A stretch of 64,000 nucleotides of DNA from Thiohalophilus sp. GTDB taxonomy: Bacteria; Pseudomonadota; Gammaproteobacteria; UBA6429; Thiohalophilaceae. Made by a program: the position numbers and the translations under genes. Location of the stretch: the NCBI RefSeq assembly GCF_034522235.1, contig NZ_JAXHLN010000003.1, positions 2,294,001 through 2,358,000 on the forward strand, in the 5' to 3' direction. The notes under the pieces were generated by a model that made no database searches, was not told the origin of the DNA, and saw only the letters and a program-made list of their open reading frames with translations. Positions 7,485-15,069 of this stretch are shown here, one piece after another. Every line of letters starts with the position of its first letter. The first letter of the stretch is position 1.

Positions 7485-8120
7485 ATGAACCCCCAGAAGC
7501 GACGTGAGATTTTCAGGCGGCTGAAGAAAGAAAATCCGCACCCCACCACTGAACTGAACTACCGCAGCCCGTTTGAGCTGCTGATCGCGGTGATTCTCTC
7601 GGCCCAGGCAACCGACAAGGGCGTCAACAAGGCGACCAAAGAATTGTTCAAGGTGGCCCGCAGCCCGAAAAAGATGCTGGAGCTCGGCGAATCCGGCCTG
7701 AAGGAATACATCCAGACCATCGGCCTGTTCAACAGCAAGGCCAAAAACATCATCAAGACCTGCCAGATACTGGTCGAGCAACACGGCGGCAAGGTCCCCG
7801 AGGACCGGGCAGCGCTGGAGGCATTGCCCGGCGTGGGCCGCAAGACCGCCAACGTGATCCTCAACACCGCCTTCGGCCACCCCACCATCGCCGTGGACAC
7901 CCACATCTTCCGGGTCAGCAACCGCACCGGCCTGGCCCCGGGCAAGACCGTGCTGGAGGTGGAGAAAAAGCTGCTCAAGGTGGTGCCCGGGGAATTCAAA
8001 AAGGACGCCCACCACTGGCTGATCCTGCTGGGACGCTATACCTGCGTGGCCCGCAAACCGCGCTGCGGGGCCTGTGTCATCGAGGACCTGTGCGAATACA
8101 AGGACAAGACCTCCGACTGA
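7485..8120 (+). CDS. nth: Endonuclease III
   Basis: Base-excision repair DNA glycosylase and AP lyase that removes oxidised pyrimidines. The 211-residue product has all hallmarks: helix-hairpin-helix LPGVGRKTANVIL (about 114-126) with the catalytic lysine, the catalytic aspartate in VDTHIFRV (about 138), and the C-terminal [4Fe-4S] loop CVARKPRCGACVIEDLC with Cx6Cx2Cx5C spacing. Length equals the E. coli enzyme. It sits directly downstream of rsxE as in enterobacteria but behind a repeat, so it may have its own promoter. Confidence 0.97.
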   Translation: MNPQKRREIFRRLKKENPHPTTELNYRSPFELLIAVILSAQATDKGVNKATKELFKVARSPKKMLELGESGLKEYIQTIGLFNSKAKNIIKTCQILVEQHGGKVPEDRAALEALPGVGRKTANVILNTAFGHPTIAVDTHIFRVSNRTGLAPGKTVLEVEKKLLKVVPGEFKKDAHHWLILLGRYTCVARKPRCGACVIEDLCEYKDKTSD

Positions 8121-8364
8121 TTCCCTTTTTTATGACCGGAGGAATAAACGTTATTTCCAGCGTCCGGGCGAGTCCCGGTAAAGGCCGTATATTAGAAACC
8201 GCTAATTTACCGCCTCCTCGCGCCGGGCCCCGCCAGGAACCATCCGGTCCTGACAGGGTCACAATTATGCAATGGCGTGGTTTTTTTATATCATTTCTGT
8301 TGTAAGGTTTACCCCGATTCCACGACTAATAACCAACAAACAACACACATGGAGAATGCAGATT
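8121..8364. other. Leader region of the hvfABC-like operon
   Basis: No gene is visible. The stretch contains two potential hairpins: GGTAAA (8178-8183) pairing with TTTACC near 8205-8211, with an inner TTAG/CTAA stem; and CAGGA pairing with TCCTG around 8233-8252. An ECF-like promoter candidate follows. A Shine-Dalgarno GGAG at 8351-8354 lies ten bases before ATG 8365. A promoter and a structured 5' leader for the Cys-rich peptide gene are therefore plausible. Confidence 0.4.
8302..8329 (+). promoter_or_regulatory. Candidate ECF-sigma promoter upstream of the precursor gene
   Basis: GTAAG at 8302-8306 and CGACTAA at 8323-8329 are separated by 16 bases, resembling the GTAAC-N16-CGTC pattern of ECF sigma factors. 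ECF control of DUF692/bufferin-type operons by metal stress is known in other proteobacteria. No sigma gene is seen nearby, so this is inferred from sequence pattern alone. Confidence 0.3.
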
Positions 8365-8742
8365 ATGTCAAACCGTAAATCATCCAAGACCCTGACGCTT
8401 GCCCTGGGTACGGCCTTTGCCGCCAGCATGGCAGCCAGCAACATCGCCTCGGCGGCCGAAACCACCAGCAATCCCTTCGCCATGAACGAGTTGTCCAGCG
8501 GCTACATGCAGCTGGCCGATAACCATATGGAAGGCAAATGTGGCGGTAACAAAAAGTCTGAAAATGAAGGTCGTTGTGGCGAAGGCCGCGAAAGCAAGAA
8601 AAATGACATGGAAGGCAAGTGCGGCGAAGGTAAATGCGGCGGTAACAAGGAAATGAAGAAGAACATGGAAGGCAAATGTGGCGGCGACAAGGCCAAACAG
8701 GAAGGCAAGTGCGGCGAAGGTAAATGCGGCGCCAGCAAATAA
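8365..8742 (+). CDS. hvfA: Exported Cys-rich precursor peptide with EGKCG repeats (HvfA-like)
   Basis: 125-residue peptide. Residues 1-30 form a signal peptide (basic start, Ala/Leu-rich core, ASA cleavage-like end). The rest is low complexity, rich in Lys, Glu and Gly. It has seven cysteines at 59, 71, 86, 91, 105, 116 and 121, every one in the context E-G-K/R-C-G, plus one degenerate unit EGRE at 73-76 that lacks the Cys. In Haemophilus HvfA the Cys of EGKCG is converted to a copper-binding oxazolone/thioamide pair by the DUF692 enzyme HvfB with HvfC. The two partner genes follow directly here, so the same modification is inferred. ATG 8365 is chosen for its GGAGA ribosome site and because it begins the signal peptide. 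Confidence 0.85.
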   Translation: MSNRKSSKTLTLALGTAFAASMAASNIASAAETTSNPFAMNELSSGYMQLADNHMEGKCGGNKKSENEGRCGEGRESKKNDMEGKCGEGKCGGNKEMKKNMEGKCGGDKAKQEGKCGEGKCGASK

Positions 8743-8760
8743 GCTGCCAGGGGAACTGAC

Positions 8761-9618
8761 ATGAACACGACGACCTATCCTGTTCATGGCGCCGGACTGG
8801 GTCTGCGGCGCTCCATCATGGAGCCGCTCGCGGACCCGTTCCCTTCTCAGGTGCAGTTTATGGAAATTGCCCCGGAGAACTGGATCGGCGTTGGTGGCCG
8901 CTACGGTCGCAAGTTACGGGAATTCACCGAGCGCTATCCGTTTGTCACCCACGGGCTGTCGCTGTCGCTGGGCGGTCCCGCACCGCTGGACGAGGCCTTT
9001 TTACAGCGTCTCAAGCGTTTTCTCAAACAACACAATATCCGGATCTACAGCGAGCATCTGAGCTACTGCAGTGACGACGGGCACCTGTATGATTTGATGC
9101 CCATTCCGTTCACTGACGAGGCGGTCCATTACGTGGCCGGGCGGATTCGTCGTGTCCAGGAGATACTCGAACAACCCATTGCCGTCGAGAATGTCTCCTA
9201 CTACGCCGCCCCGGGCAAACAGATGGACGAGATCGAGTTCATCAATGCCGTGCTCGATGAAGCCGACTGCAAGCTGTTGCTGGATGTGAACAATATTTAT
9301 GTCAACAGCGTCAATCACCGCTACGACGCCCTGGAGTTCCTGCGCGCCCTGCCGGGCGAACGCATCAGTTATATCCATGTCGCCGGCCATTACAATGAAG
9401 CCGAGGATCTGATCGTCGACACCCACGGCGCGCCTGTCATCGATCCGGTCTGGGAGCTGCTCGATCAGACTTACCGCCATTTTGGTGTAACCCCCACCCT
9501 GCTGGAACGTGACTTCAACCTGCCGCCGGTCAATGAATTACTGACCGAAGTGGACATGATTCATACGCTCCAGCAACGCCAGGAACAATCGCATGACTTC
9601 CGTGCCGAATCAGTCTGA
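8761..9618 (+). CDS. hvfB: DUF692 multinuclear non-heme iron oxidase (HvfB/MbnB-like)
   Basis: 285-residue TIM-barrel enzyme of the UPF0276/DUF692 family. Relatives bind two or three iron atoms and rearrange peptide cysteines into oxazolone/thioamide or related heterocycles (MbnB, HvfB, bufferin enzymes). Conserved ligand-type motifs are visible: [10 protein letters not shown] (about 61-70), YSEHLSY (about 97-103), ENVSYY (about 142), [10 protein letters not shown] (about 173-182), YIHVAGH (about 203-209), DTHGAPV and LERDFNLP. The ribosome site AGGGGA precedes the ATG. It overlaps the next gene by 26 bases. Its substrate is inferred to be the EGKCG peptide encoded 18 bases upstream. Confidence 0.92.
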
Positions 9619-10396
9619 CAAGCCCGACTTCCGTCAGCAGCAATACCGGTTTGCGGCCCATATCCGCGACCCGCAGGCCGCTCCGTCTCCGGAGGGTATT
9701 GAGGATCGGCGCATGGCGATCTATCGGGAACTGTTCTACAACAATGTCCAGGGCTTTATGGCCGACAGTTTTCCGGTATTGCGCGCGCTGCTGAATGATG
9801 AACGCTGGCATCGACTGATTCGTAGTTATTTCGCCCGGCACAGGGCAAAAACCCCCCTGTTTCCCGAAATGCCGCGAGAGTTTCTCAAATATCTCGAACA
9901 CGAACGTGAACCGGCGGCGGATGATCCCCCGTTTCTGTTTGAGCTGGCCCATTACGAATGGGTGGAACTGGCACTGAGCCTCGCCGATCAGGAACCGGAC
10001 TGGGCCCGGCTCGACCCCCAGGGGGACCTGTTGGCGGCGCAACCGGTGCTCTCGCCCCTGGCCTGGCCGCTCAGCTACCACTTTCCGGTTCACCGGATTG
10101 GTCCCGATTTCCAGCCCGGACAGCCGGGCGAGCAACCCACCTGCCTGCTGGTTTATCGGGATGAGCGGGATGAGATCACCTTTATGGAGCTTAACCCGGT
10201 CACCGCCCGCCTGCTGGCCCTGATCGACGAGAACAACGGACAAAGCGGCGAAGCGCTGTTGCGGCAGATTGCCGGGGAGCTGAATCATCCCGATCCCGGC
10301 ACGGTCATTCAGGGCGGCCAACAAATTCTGAACGATCTGCACCAGCGCGGTGTCATACCCGGTACCCGACGCTCTGACACCGACGTGTCGAGCTAG
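9593..10396 (+). CDS. hvfC: DUF2063 RiPP partner protein (HvfC/MbnC-like)
   Basis: 267 residues. The N-terminal ~100 residues match the DUF2063 'putative DNA-binding' domain ([15 protein letters not shown], then [21 protein letters not shown]). In DUF692 systems this domain is a peptide-recognition and enzyme-partner subunit rather than a DNA binder. The C-terminal part (about 140-250) is the HvfC-type C domain. It starts inside the end of hvfB, so the two proteins are probably made in a fixed ratio. No DoxX-like membrane gene, common in related operons, follows. Confidence 0.88.
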
Positions 10397-10433
10397 TCGG
10401 AACACGTTTTTAGATCTCCTCCTGTGGTCTGTT

Positions 10434-10462
10434 GCCGGTCGAAGTTTTGGCCGGCTTTTCTT
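10434..10462 (+). terminator. Possible terminator after the hvfABC-like operon
   Basis: GCCGG at 10434-10438 can pair with CCGGC at 10451-10455 across a 12-base loop, followed by TTTTCTTTTT. The stem is short, so this is a weak intrinsic terminator candidate about 40 bases past the hvfC stop. Confidence 0.4.
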
Positions 10463-10563
10463 TTTGCGCACGACGGGCATTGGATCACGCTTTTCCCGCG
10501 CTAACTTGCTGATAATGATGATACAATCCTCTGCCGTATCGGTGGAGGGAGCCCCTGCGCTGT

Positions 10564-10575
10564 ACCTGTACAGGT
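10564..10575. promoter_or_regulatory. 12-bp perfect palindrome, candidate operator
   Basis: ACCTGTACAGGT equals its own reverse complement. It lies about 40-60 bases after the likely -10 boxes and 137 bases before the first codon of the five-gene operon. It could be a dimeric repressor site or an mRNA hairpin. The cognate regulator is unknown. Confidence 0.3.
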
Positions 10576-10712
10576 CTCTTGTATTACACTGCAACGGCGC
10601 CGCTGTGGGCCAACCCTGGAGGCACTCAGGGACTACCGGGGACCGGCCAAACCCAATCCGGATACCGCATCACTCACATGCCAGCCATGCTGACAGCTGA
10701 ACGACGTTTAAC

Positions 10713-11720
10713 ATGAAAATTTCCGCCTCGATTTATTCCAACAAGCACAAGGCACTGCAGGACATCGTTGCCGAGCTGGATGCGCACGGCACGGATTTTT
10801 TTCATATCGACTGCAATGATGACCCGAAGGTGTTCGACGACATCGCGCAAATCCGCCAGCTCAGCAGCACACCGCTCGATTTGCACATCATTACCCCGAC
10901 ACCGGGCAAGTATTACGATTTGATCGCGTCCCATCAGGTGGATGCGGTCTGTTTTCAGTATGAGGCGTTGCAGGAAGCACTGGCGATTCCCGGGACGATT
11001 CATGCCCGCATCGGTCTGGCCATCAGCTCGAATACCGATATCGACGTGTTCGCCCCCTATGCCGATCAACTCGACTTTGTGCTGATCATGGCCACCACGC
11101 CGGGACAGAGTGGCGGCACCTTCGACAAGCACAATTTCCGCAAGATCCGTCAGTTCCGGCAGAAGTTTCCGCGCACCCGAATTCATGTCGATGGCGGGGT
11201 CAATCACGAGGTCTCCTTTATCCTGCGCAACATGGGGGTTTATGCCGCGGTTTCCGGCTCCTACCTGATGAACAGTGATTCCATCGGCGCGGCCATGTTG
11301 AACCTCAAGACCCATGACATTGGCTCGCACTATCTGGTCGGCGATTTCATGCGCCAGCGGGATGAGACGCCGCTATTACGCCCCGACGAACTGAGTGTGC
11401 GCAATATCCTGCAATCCATTGAGGACAACAAACTCGGGTTTACCCTGGTGGCCGATGAGAGCGGTATATTACTGGGCATGATCACCAATGCCGATGTGCG
11501 CAAAGGGCTGCTGAAACATATCGACAATCTCAATGCCCTGGAAGTCACCGACATGATCAACCCGTCGCCCGCTGCCGCGCGCGAGGATTTTACCGTACAG
11601 GAACTGCTGGCCTATATTCAGGAGCAGACGTTTCCCGTGAATTATTTACCCGTCGTCAACAACAAGCATGAAGTGACCGGCTCGGTTACGTTCATGAATC
11701 TCGTTAAAGGTGAAGTATGA
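10713..11720 (+). CDS. Ribulose-phosphate 3-epimerase-like barrel fused to tandem CBS domains
   Basis: 335 residues. Residues 1-215 form a ribulose-5-phosphate 3-epimerase-type TIM barrel. The metal/catalytic positions are kept: His31 and Asp33 in HIDCNDD, His58 in LDLHII, Asp160 in VDGGVN, with PGQSGG as the phosphate loop. The family's usual H-x-D-x-M-D-G is changed to H-I-D-C-N-D-D, so substrate specificity may differ. Residues ~225-335 are a CBS pair (EVTDMINPSP between the two repeats), a nucleotide-sensing module. CBS pairs normally sit on the arabinose-5-phosphate isomerase KdsD; here an epimerase fold takes that place in a Kdo-like operon. Its stop overlaps the next start (ATGA). Substrate unknown. 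Confidence 0.82.
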   Translation: MKISASIYSNKHKALQDIVAELDAHGTDFFHIDCNDDPKVFDDIAQIRQLSSTPLDLHIITPTPGKYYDLIASHQVDAVCFQYEALQEALAIPGTIHARIGLAISSNTDIDVFAPYADQLDFVLIMATTPGQSGGTFDKHNFRKIRQFRQKFPRTRIHVDGGVNHEVSFILRNMGVYAAVSGSYLMNSDSIGAAMLNLKTHDIGSHYLVGDFMRQRDETPLLRPDELSVRNILQSIEDNKLGFTLVADESGILLGMITNADVRKGLLKHIDNLNALEVTDMINPSPAAAREDFTVQELLAYIQEQTFPVNYLPVVNNKHEVTGSVTFMNLVKGEV

Positions 11721-12715
11721 TTATCCATTTCGACAAAAATACCGACCAGAAAACGCTCGACAAGATCGGTCGGGAGCTGGACGCCTTTCATATCAAAAAA
11801 CCGGACTATCATGTGATGGTCACCCCCTCGGCCCTGCAGGAAGTGCCGAAAGAATATCAAAGCATGGTGGTGGAAAGTTTCGTCTTTCCCAACGACATGC
11901 AACTGTCCAGCGCCGAATACCTGCCGGAAAAACGCCGCATTGACATCGGCAACATCAGCATCGGCGGCAACACCCGCAACACCATGATTATCGGCGGTCC
12001 CTGTTCGGTGGAATCCGAAGAGCAGATCACCGCCTCGGCCAAACTGATGAAGGAACTGGGCATCTCCACCCTGCGTGCCGGCTGCTACAAGCCGCGCACC
12101 TCGCCGTATAGTTTTCAGGGGCTGGGTACCGAAGGCCTGCGCCTGCTGGACAAGATGCGCAGCGAATACGGCCTGAACATCATTACCGAAGTGCGCGACT
12201 CCACCCATGTGGACGAAGTGATCGAAACCACCGACATTGTGCAAATCGGCGCCAAGGCCATGTACGACCAGGGGATCCTGCGCACCTGCGGCCGCAGCAA
12301 CAAGCCGATCCTGATCAAACGCGGCTTCGGCACCACCCTGCAGGAGTTCGTCCAGGCCGCCGAATTTGTGCTCTCCGGCGGCAATGACAACGTTATCCTG
12401 TGCGAGCGCGGCATCCGCACCTTCGAGACCAAGACCCGCTTTACCCTGGATCTGTGCGGCGTGGCCTATCTGAAGGAATACACCAACCTGCCGATCATCG
12501 TCGATCCCAGTCACGCCATGGGCTATCGCTACGGTGTGCCGGATCTGGCCCGGGCCTCGACGGCCATGGGTGTCGACGGCTTGCTGATCGAGGTCCATCC
12601 CGATCCGTCCATAGCCAAGTCCGATGCCTCCCAGCAGCTGGATCACGACGCCTTCCGCGAACTGATCGGCACTCTGCGACCCATCGCCCAGGCGATCGGT
12701 TACAACATTGTCTAG
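11717..12715 (+). CDS. DAHP synthase type I-beta-like aldolase in a Kdo-type operon
   Basis: 332 residues. The first ~85 residues are a ferredoxin/ACT-like N-terminal domain as in Thermotoga-type DAHP synthase. The barrel carries GPCSVES, GCYKPRTSPYSFQG, IQIGAKAM, LIKRGFGTT, CERGIRTFE and VDPSHAMG. The KPRTSPY loop is the DAHP-synthase version; Kdo-8-phosphate synthases have a KANRSS-type loop instead. These enzymes condense phosphoenolpyruvate with an aldose phosphate (erythrose-4-phosphate for DAHP). The gene is sandwiched between the epimerase-CBS gene and a kdsC-like phosphatase. A role in a 3-deoxy-ulosonate for surface glycans is therefore as likely as aromatic biosynthesis. Confidence 0.85.
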   Translation: MIIHFDKNTDQKTLDKIGRELDAFHIKKPDYHVMVTPSALQEVPKEYQSMVVESFVFPNDMQLSSAEYLPEKRRIDIGNISIGGNTRNTMIIGGPCSVESEEQITASAKLMKELGISTLRAGCYKPRTSPYSFQGLGTEGLRLLDKMRSEYGLNIITEVRDSTHVDEVIETTDIVQIGAKAMYDQGILRTCGRSNKPILIKRGFGTTLQEFVQAAEFVLSGGNDNVILCERGIRTFETKTRFTLDLCGVAYLKEYTNLPIIVDPSHAMGYRYGVPDLARASTAMGVDGLLIEVHPDPSIAKSDASQQLDHDAFRELIGTLRPIAQAIGYNIV

Positions 12716-12719
12716 CTCC

Positions 12720-13202
12720 ATGACCCGCCGCACGGACATCAAAATGCTGGCCCTGGATATCGACGGGGTCATGACCGACGGCGGCATGTACTACACCGAG
12801 AGCGGCGAGGAGGTCAAACGCTTCGATACCAAGGACGGGCGCGGTATTATTCACCTGTTACGCGAGGGCGTACAGGTTGTCGTGTTGAGCTCCGGCTTTA
12901 AAAACACCATTATCGCCGAACGCTGCAAGACCCTCGGCATCGATAAGTTTTATGTCGGCACCGAGCCCAAACTGGATATTCTCAAACAGTTCTGTACCGA
13001 GCTTGGCATCAAGCTGGACGAGGTCGCCTATATCGGGGATGACATCAACGATCGCGATATCATTCACAATGTCGGCTTTAGCGCCTGCCCCGCCGACGCG
13101 GTCGGCTCGATCAAACCGATCGTGGACGTGGTGCTGGAAAAAAACGGCGGATATGGTTGTATTCGCGAGTTCATCGACGAGCATCTCGGCTACCATTTTT
13201 AA
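12720..13202 (+). CDS. kdsC: KdsC-like HAD phosphatase
   Basis: 160-residue HAD superfamily phosphatase of the 3-deoxy-D-manno-octulosonate-8-phosphate phosphatase type. Motif I is DIDGVMTDGG (about 12-21), motif II SSG, the conserved lysine lies in GTEPKLDIL, and motif IV is IGDDINDRDI. The small size without a cap domain fits tetrameric KdsC. The end, GGYGCIREFIDEHL, replaces the usual GGxGAVRE tail. ATG 12720 is four bases past the aldolase stop. It presumably removes the phosphate from the sugar acid made by the upstream enzyme; the exact substrate cannot be read from sequence. Confidence 0.9.
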   Translation: MTRRTDIKMLALDIDGVMTDGGMYYTESGEEVKRFDTKDGRGIIHLLREGVQVVVLSSGFKNTIIAERCKTLGIDKFYVGTEPKLDILKQFCTELGIKLDEVAYIGDDINDRDIIHNVGFSACPADAVGSIKPIVDVVLEKNGGYGCIREFIDEHLGYHF

Positions 13203-13219
13203 CCTGGACCCCGAACGCC

Positions 13220-14308
13220 ATGCCGTTACCCTTCTCTTCGCCACCGAACAACCTGTGCATCCTGCGTCTTTCCGCCATTGGAGATATCTGCCATACCCTG
13301 CCCGTGGTGCGCACCATCCAGCAGGCCTGGCCACAAACCCGGCTGACCTGGATCATCGGTAAAAGCGAATACGCGTTGCTGGAGGGAATTGTGGATATAG
13401 AATTCGTCGTCTTCGATAAATCCGCGGGAATGAGCGCCTACCGCGACGTGCGCCGGCAACTCAACTCAAGAGCTTTCGACGCCCTGTTGCACATGCAGAT
13501 GTCGCTGCGCTCCAGTCTGCTCAGCCTGCTGGTCAACTCACCGGTTAAACTGGGTTTTGATCGGGACCGTGCCGGTGACATGCAATGGCTGTTCAGTAAT
13601 CACAAAATTGCCCCACAAAAAAATCAACACGTGCTGGACAGCCTGTTTGGCTTCAGCCAGGCATTGGGAATCAGGGAAAAACAGTTACGCTGGGACATTC
13701 CGGTGACGCCGGAGGATATGCAACTGGCCCGGCAACTGGCCGATCCCGCGCAGCCCTACCTGGTCATCAGTCCCAGCTCCAGCAAACCTTATCGTAACTG
13801 GCACACAAGCGGTTACGCGCAACTGGCCGACCATGCGGCGAACGAACATGGTCTGCGGGTCTATATCACCGGCGGCAATACCCCACTGGAGCGACAGTTG
13901 GCGGAAGATATCTGCACCAAAAGCACGACCGACGCCATCACCAACCTCGCGGGCAAAACGTCACTGAAACAGTTGCTGGTGGTTTTGCAAAATGCGCTCG
14001 GCGTCATCGCCCCCGACTCGGGACCGGCGCATATGGCCACCGCCGTCGGCACGCCGGTTATCGGTCTGTATGCCTGTACCAATCCCGATCGCGCCCGGCC
14101 CTATCTGAGTGCCGAATGGACAGTCAACCGTTACCCCGAGGCGGTACAGGCCAGATACCACAAACCGGTCGAAGCACTGCCGTGGGGGCTCCGTGTACGT
14201 GACGCGGGAACCATGGACCGGATCAGTGTTGAGGAAGTAAAATCCACCCTCGACCGGCTGATTCATGCCAGCGGCGCACATTCATCGGCAAAAGATAACA
14301 CCCTATGA
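13220..14308 (+). CDS. Glycosyltransferase family 9 (heptosyltransferase-like)
   Basis: 362-residue GT-B enzyme of family GT9, which includes LPS heptosyltransferases. Motifs: ILRLSAIGDICHTLPVV near the N-terminus, VISPSSSKPYRNW in the donor-binding domain, and IAPDSGPAHMATAVGTPVIGLY (starting near residue 255), the hallmark GT9 donor site. ATG 13220 begins the conserved part; an earlier in-frame ATG at 13157 overlaps kdsC. The stop overlaps kdsB (ATGA). Probably transfers a sugar to an envelope glycan, possibly in the same pathway as its neighbours. Confidence 0.88.
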   Translation: MPLPFSSPPNNLCILRLSAIGDICHTLPVVRTIQQAWPQTRLTWIIGKSEYALLEGIVDIEFVVFDKSAGMSAYRDVRRQLNSRAFDALLHMQMSLRSSLLSLLVNSPVKLGFDRDRAGDMQWLFSNHKIAPQKNQHVLDSLFGFSQALGIREKQLRWDIPVTPEDMQLARQLADPAQPYLVISPSSSKPYRNWHTSGYAQLADHAANEHGLRVYITGGNTPLERQLAEDICTKSTTDAITNLAGKTSLKQLLVVLQNALGVIAPDSGPAHMATAVGTPVIGLYACTNPDRARPYLSAEWTVNRYPEAVQARYHKPVEALPWGLRVRDAGTMDRISVEEVKSTLDRLIHASGAHSSAKDNTL

Positions 14309-15069
14309 GCTTTCATATTGTCATTCCCGCCCGCTACGCATCCGGCCGACTGCCGGGCAAACCACTACGCGAGATCGCCGGCAAGCCGATGATCGCCCAT
14401 GTCATCGACAACGCCCTGCAGAGTGATGCCGAACGCATCATTGTCGCCACCGATGACGCACGCATCATGGAAGCGTCCGCCGGCTTCCCGGTGGAATGCT
14501 GTATGACTTCGGAGCAGCACAATTCCGGGACCGAGCGCATTCACGAGGTCATCGAAAAATTCGAGATCGCGGACGAGACGATCATCGTCAACATGCAGGG
14601 TGACGAACCCCTGATGCCGGGGGCCTGTCTCAACCAGGTCGGCCATGCCCTGGCGCAGGATAGCAACGCGGAGATGGCCACCCTCAGCACCCCGGCCGAA
14701 ACTGTTGAGGAATTGTTCGACTGGAATGTGATTAAACTGGTTCGCGATCATGACGACAATGCAATCTACTTCAGCCGCGCACCGATCCCCTGGGATCGCG
14801 AGGCCTTTCGCGAATCAACACCCACGCTGGATGACTTCAGCCACTTTCACCGCCATATCGGTCTATATGCCTACCGCGCGGGTTTCGTCAAACAATACAT
14901 CGAATGGGGCAGCTGTGCCCTGGAGCGGATTGAATCGCTGGAGCAGTTGCGGGTGTTATATCACGGCAGGAAGATCAAGGTGGTAACGGCCATGCAGGTG
15001 CCCGGGCCGGGTGTCAATACCGAGGAAGAGTTACAGCGGGTGGAGGAAATTCTTCTGGCAGACCAGTAG
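14305..15069 (+). CDS. kdsB: CMP-3-deoxy-ulosonate cytidylyltransferase (KdsB-like)
   Basis: 254 residues, the usual KdsB length. It activates Kdo or a related 3-deoxy sugar acid with CTP to give the CMP-sugar donor. Motifs: IPARYASGRLPGKPL (nucleotide loop), VATDD, MQGDEPL (metal-binding Asp), ALERIESLEQLRVL. The family phrase H-x-G-x-Y-x-Y is present as HIGLYAYRAGF. Last gene of the five-gene overlapping operon; convergent with the PAS-GGDEF-EAL gene 17 bases away. Whether it acts on Kdo, 8-amino-Kdo or a heptulosonate is not decidable by eye. Confidence 0.93.
   Translation: MSFHIVIPARYASGRLPGKPLREIAGKPMIAHVIDNALQSDAERIIVATDDARIMEASAGFPVECCMTSEQHNSGTERIHEVIEKFEIADETIIVNMQGDEPLMPGACLNQVGHALAQDSNAEMATLSTPAETVEELFDWNVIKLVRDHDDNAIYFSRAPIPWDREAFRESTPTLDDFSHFHRHIGLYAYRAGFVKQYIEWGSCALERIESLEQLRVLYHGRKIKVVTAMQVPGPGVNTEEELQRVEEILLADQ

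Follow-up and report, generated by a model that had tools for sequence, protein, structure and literature searches.

The DNA analysed here (the window, 64,000 nucleotides from Thiohalophilus sp.) carries a compact operon for a cysteine-rich repeat peptide and two partner proteins, which raises the question of what the peptide becomes, what it does for the cell, and whether the operon is self-contained. Our answer, to which we assign a probability of about 85%, is that the operon is a captophorin cluster, hvfABC, whose proteins HvfB and HvfC (HvfBC) act on two precursors encoded at separate loci, that both loci answer to a common ECF switch, and that the products buffer copper. This answer draws on gene identities, on repeat and promoter statistics, on the presence of one MNIO for two precursors, and on conservation in a second species.

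Gene content of the hvfABC operon

All three genes lie on the forward strand. The first, hvfA (hvfA1; 8365..8742), encodes a captophorin precursor of 125 amino acids, identified by NCBIfam NF050137 and by an alignment of relatives; its ATG start codon at 8365 lies behind a ribosome-binding site, GGAG (8351..8354, + strand), which was read from the sequence and is kept in the sister species. The second, hvfB (8761..9618), encodes a MNIO (DUF692) RiPP maturase of 285 amino acids (NF003818, PF05114; a relative of PDB 3BWW), and overlaps by 26 nt with hvfC (9593..10396), which encodes a DUF2063/PME1 partner of 267 amino acids (NF050145, PF09836; a relative of PDB 3DEE). A terminator-like hairpin with a T tail (10434..10465, + strand; a 9-pair stem followed by TTTTCTTTTT) marks the end of the operon. 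The span of 8365–10396 proposed in the sequence-only reading of this DNA fits both the start and the end so defined.

That reading had also recognized an HvfA-type RiPP with MNIO and PME1 neighbors, and all three proteins indeed exceed the NCBIfam Hvf cut-offs: HvfA1 scored 56 bits against NF050137 (KCGExKCG_twice; cut-off 19.5), HvfB 452 bits against NF003818 (cut-off 360) and HvfC 339 bits against NF050145 (cut-off 142). Pfam matches of the hvfB and hvfC products were MbnB_TglH_ChrH, DUF2063, and NGO1945_C. HvfA1 falls below the cut-off of NF050188, the equivalog for HvfA proper (36 bits vs. 95 required), and the MNIO is not of the methanobactin type (39 bits vs. the MbnB-type cut-off of 325). 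Residues R16/R17 and D251-F252 of HvfB are the counterparts of the two Arg and the Asp-Phe through which FonB contacts its substrate (PMC13097082). Clusters that combine an EGKCG-repeat precursor, a MNIO and a PME1 protein have been named Buf_EGKCG/oxazolins or captophorins (PMC12452194, PMC13097082), and judged from its sequence hvfABC is an ordinary member of this group.

The closest named relative of the host is Thiohalophilus thiocyanatoxydans, in which HvfB is 94% identical. The dN/dS values against this species (0.19 for hvfA, 0.09 for hvfB and 0.12 for hvfC) indicate purifying selection on all three genes. The genome encodes SoxB (838 bits, cut-off 550), which supports the earlier view of the host as a sulfur oxidizer.

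It had further been stated that no DoxX-like gene follows. This holds at the window locus, since the gene after hvfC, beyond the terminator at 10434, starts at 10713 and encodes an unrelated epimerase-CBS protein; it does not hold for the genome, in which an HvfX gene lies beside a second precursor gene (see below). The lack of an adjacent DoxX gene is not unusual. The fon cluster is also without one, and by ORF-based tallies, which are lower bounds, an EGKCG-type precursor stands directly 5' of hvfB in at least 55 of the 70 close relatives whose upstream sequence was long enough, while hvfC is present in at least 59, and HvfX within 2.5 kb in only 31 or more, of the 67 with downstream sequence available.

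A separate observation concerns the neighboring row of genes at 10713–15069, which is Kdo-like and encodes a ribulose-phosphate-epimerase-CBS fusion, a DAHP-synthase-type protein, a KdsC-like phosphatase, a heptosyltransferase, and KdsB. The genome has no KdsA-like match other than this DAHP-synthase-type protein, and as it scores under the KdsA cut-off, the row may represent a variant route to Kdo or to another ulosonic acid.

Repeats and leader of the precursor

The Cys residues of HvfA1 are at positions 59, 71, 86, 91, 105, 116, and 121, and every one is within an EG[K/R]CG unit (six EGKCG and one EGRCG), as the sequence-only reading had described. Among 20,000 shuffles of the mature sequence none contained more than one such motif; together with the dN/dS range of 0.09–0.19, this rules out a chance repeat or a pseudogene. 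The degenerate repeat previously placed at residues 73–76 was located as EGRES at residues 73–77 (8581..8595, + strand). Its counterpart in the sister species is EGRGD, and because T. thiocyanatoxydans thus also carries a Cys-less unit (EGRCGEGRGDE), a sequencing error was ruled out. The EGRCG unit would be expected to undergo modification, since FonBC tolerates Arg in place of Lys (PMC13097082).

Ahead of the repeats, residues 1–31 resemble a Sec-type signal, a call made by eye and from the family alignment that agrees with the signal peptide proposed earlier; the leader motif is NPFAMNELSSGYMQLA. A stretch of the form NPF..xEL.SGYM, between the signal and the repeats (8470–8520 in the window), is strongly conserved in the precursor leaders of the relatives (loci L005–L113), and is likely the docking site for HvfC. 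A structured leader RNA over 8336–8420 was rejected, as the fold was worse than those of all shuffles.

A second precursor locus without a MNIO gene

A second EGKCG precursor gene, hvfA2 (C3:279913-280242; 109 amino acids, six Cys), was found on the same contig approximately 2.0 Mb from the window. Downstream, it is adjoined by an HvfX-family DoxX gene (202 bits, cut-off 80), the two forming a locus (L130:5122-6243; G000:C3:279121-280242) that has no MNIO gene nearby, as is also the case in T. thiocyanatoxydans (L172). HvfA2 scored 67 bits against NF050188, below the 95 required. Facing hvfA2-hvfX is an operon (L130:3101-4815), itself behind a TGTAAGG promoter motif, for a membrane protein, a thioredoxin-like protein, an ECF sigma factor (matching TIGR02943), and an MseR-like zinc anti-sigma factor (matching NF052368). 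The residues Cys4, His30, Cys34, and Cys37 of the latter form a ZAS pattern (His-x3-Cys-x2-Cys plus Cys4), and meningococcal MseR has been described with exactly these positions (PMC2893595). The arrangement of hvfA2-hvfX and the sigma operon, as well as the hvfA2 sequence, is conserved in T. thiocyanatoxydans; in two further genomes (G015 and G017) a precursor, an hvfX-like gene, the sigma and the anti-sigma gene stand in a single row.

Genomes with several precursors are already on record, with up to four Buf_EGKCG genes in one genome (PMC12452194). Here two EGKCG precursors are matched by one detected MNIO gene, and no second MNIO was found in the genome, which leaves HvfBC as the sole candidate to act on both; from this lone MNIO we infer that HvfA1 and HvfA2 are probably both modified by it. 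That HvfA2 is instead no substrate of HvfBC, and either stays unmodified or acts with HvfX alone, would agree with its position away from any MNIO gene, but we regard this as distinctly improbable: HvfA2 has the same leader motif as HvfA1 (NPFAM.EL..GYM), canonical EGKCG doublets and the same promoter motif, it is conserved in a second species, and EGKCG precursors without MNIO genes occur in few genomes (PMC12452194, Table 3).

Promoter candidates and a predicted ECF switch

The regions upstream of hvfA1 and hvfA2 in both species have in common the motif TGTAAGG-N15-CGAC[TC]AAT, with identical spacing. In the window, it gives a SigmaE/MseR-type promoter candidate, TGTAAGG-N15-CGACTAAT, at 8301..8330 (+ strand), for which the start site is expected a few bases past 8330. 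The pattern TGTAAGGN{14,16}CGACYA occurs four times in the 3.06 Mb genome, and a reversed-control pattern gave zero matches in the same sequence. The four sites precede hvfA1 (window 8301), hvfA2, the sigma operon, and an acetolactate-synthase-like gene adjoining hvfA2, and three of them are within 6 kb around the sigma gene. In T. thiocyanatoxydans the motif is kept at both precursors, without any change in the boxes at hvfA1, and related sites also precede hvfA in G015 and G017. The acetolactate-synthase-like gene (L130:6927-8793; named from its sequence) is missing from the matching place in T. thiocyanatoxydans.

Searching the literature for the TGTAAGG motif found nothing relevant. The motif had been fixed before it was compared with the Neisseria sigmaE consensus, GTMAGBWTT, 12–13 nt, CGTCTAAH (PMC2893595), to which window positions 8302–8330 have one mismatch; this is the only window site with two or fewer mismatches, where 0.06 would be expected.

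A second, upstream ECF-type promoter candidate, AGGAACCAT-N12-GGGTCACAA, was identified at 8235..8264 (+ strand) by a matrix derived from the relatives and by conservation in the sister species. This GGAACC...GTCACA site is the best match in the 64 kb to the matrix, which was trained with the window left out, and of 2000 shuffled versions of the upstream region 2 scored as high; in T. thiocyanatoxydans its boxes are conserved and its spacer has diverged. The TGTAAGG site and the GGAACC dyad are, on their sequences, two possible ECF inputs to hvfA. An AACT...GTCA dyad, first seen in relatives, was demoted to a second promoter candidate only, and no sigma-70 promoter was found in 8100–10740.

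Among the relatives (L005–L113), a dyad of the form GAAACTT-N13-xxGTCATA stands before approximately one-third of the hvfA genes, 100–160 nt from the start codon and far above its frequency in shuffles. A strong match to GAAACTT...GTCATA was also seen at L136:1644 (+); an ORF whose sequence resembles a ZapE/AFG1-type ATPase follows some 50 nt downstream.

Control of the window operon mainly by another ECF sigma factor, through GGAACC...GTCACA and with the TGTAAGG match unused, is suggested by the fact that this site belongs to the GAAACTT...GTCATA form, common ahead of the hvfA genes of relatives that for the most part have no TIGR02943 sigma. We consider it unlikely, as both boxes of the TGTAAGG block are conserved unchanged and three of its only four genomic matches fall within the 6 kb around the sigma gene. 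Our preferred reading is that the ECF sigma/zinc anti-sigma pair encoded next to hvfA2-hvfX probably turns on both loci in answer to a presumed inducer. The cognate sigma is not proven, since the genome has ten sigma-70-like matches besides the TIGR02943 sigma.

Proposed maturation and function

The sequence-only reading had expected an oxazolone/thioamide product, an assignment that published work has overtaken: the modified residues of oxazolin, fontiphorin, and gonophorin are 5-thiooxazoles, two groups having corrected the earlier oxazolone/thioamide proposal for oxazolin (PMC13097082, PMC13419390). We have rejected it for HvfA1 on the basis of this reassignment. In the scheme that we propose, HvfC would hold the HvfA1 leader while HvfB, an iron enzyme, would form a 5-thiooxazole by oxidizing the Cys in every EG[K/R]CG unit, with a predicted loss of approximately 4 Da at each of as many as seven Cys. 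Taken to the periplasm by its Sec signal, modified HvfA1 would bind Cu(I) through the sulfurs of its thiooxazoles and so buffer excess copper. HvfBC would probably also mature HvfA2, whose gene is approximately 2.0 Mb away beside HvfX/DoxX, and the promoters of the form TGTAAGG-N15-CGACYA at both loci would probably be read by the ECF sigma next to hvfA2-hvfX.

Copper buffering appears, from precedent in the family, to be the best-supported role for the HvfA1 product. Caulobacter bufferins respond to metals via sigmaF (PMC3511200); in Microbulbifer, a cluster similar to hvfABC was silent under added copper (PMC12538549), which counts against a copper response. Alternatively, the captophorin could serve to acquire copper or to deliver it to copper enzymes rather than to detoxify it. 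Related enzymes make the methanobactins, which serve copper acquisition, and the sulfidic habitats of sulfur oxidizers, among which SoxB places this host, can be copper-poor. Such a role is very unlikely in our judgment, because neither locus has an adjoining uptake receptor gene, the promoters resemble ECF stress promoters, and the characterized 5-thiooxazole clusters are tied to copper, gold or oxidative stress (PMC13097082, PMC3511200).

We tentatively suggest, as a possibility that we would rate below even, a divided captophorin system in which a lone HvfBC serves two precursors whose genes are separated by about 2 Mb, the first lying next to the enzyme genes and the second paired with HvfX, under one sigmaE/MseR-type switch, the peptides having distinct tasks such as bulk periplasmic buffering and hand-over at the membrane.

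The family to which the cluster adds one more case already counts thousands of members, and in Neisseria and Caulobacter such clusters are known to be under ECF control. The new detail is the division of the system over two loci that a single ECF switch is predicted to govern. With two natural precursors for one enzyme pair, an HvfX gene that stands apart from those for the enzymes, and a regulon predicted to comprise four promoters, it offers a test bed that could reveal, for captophorins generally, the role of HvfX and what the sigma factor senses.

Comparison with known systems

The fonABC cluster of Fontimonas thermophila (PMC13097082) is the most similar in layout, consisting, like the window operon, of only a precursor, a MNIO, and a PME1 gene with no DoxX. 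Both precursors are of the Sec type with seven EGKCG-type sites each, and seven Cys are modified in the fon product. The window HvfA1 differs in having one EGRCG and one Cys-less unit, and the Thiohalophilus genome adds a second precursor with HvfX elsewhere, fon having been compared as a cluster only. With hvfABCX of Haemophilus influenzae (PMC13419390) our system shares EGKCG repeats, relatives of HvfB and HvfC, and an HvfX family member in the genome; unlike in that operon, HvfX adjoins the second precursor rather than the enzyme genes, and HvfA1 has seven instead of six Cys in irregularly spaced repeats.

The Neisseria NMB2140-2145/gonophorin system (PMC2893595, PMC3240639, PMC13097082) has the same gene set, namely DoxX, precursor, MNIO, PME1, ECF sigma, and ZAS anti-sigma, and its sigmaE promoter consensus is nearly the same as the Thiohalophilus TGTAAGG motif. 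In Neisseria, however, sigmaE drives a single operon in the order DoxX-precursor-MNIO-PME1-sigma-MseR (PMC3240639, PMC13097082), whereas Thiohalophilus has two unlinked loci and two precursors. The sigmaF regulon of Caulobacter, with its bufferins (PMC3511200), likewise places two precursor operons under one ECF sigma and has MNIO, DUF2063, and DoxX partners, but its precursors are of the DUF2282 type, its anti-sigma factor is a different one, and each precursor has a MNIO of its own.
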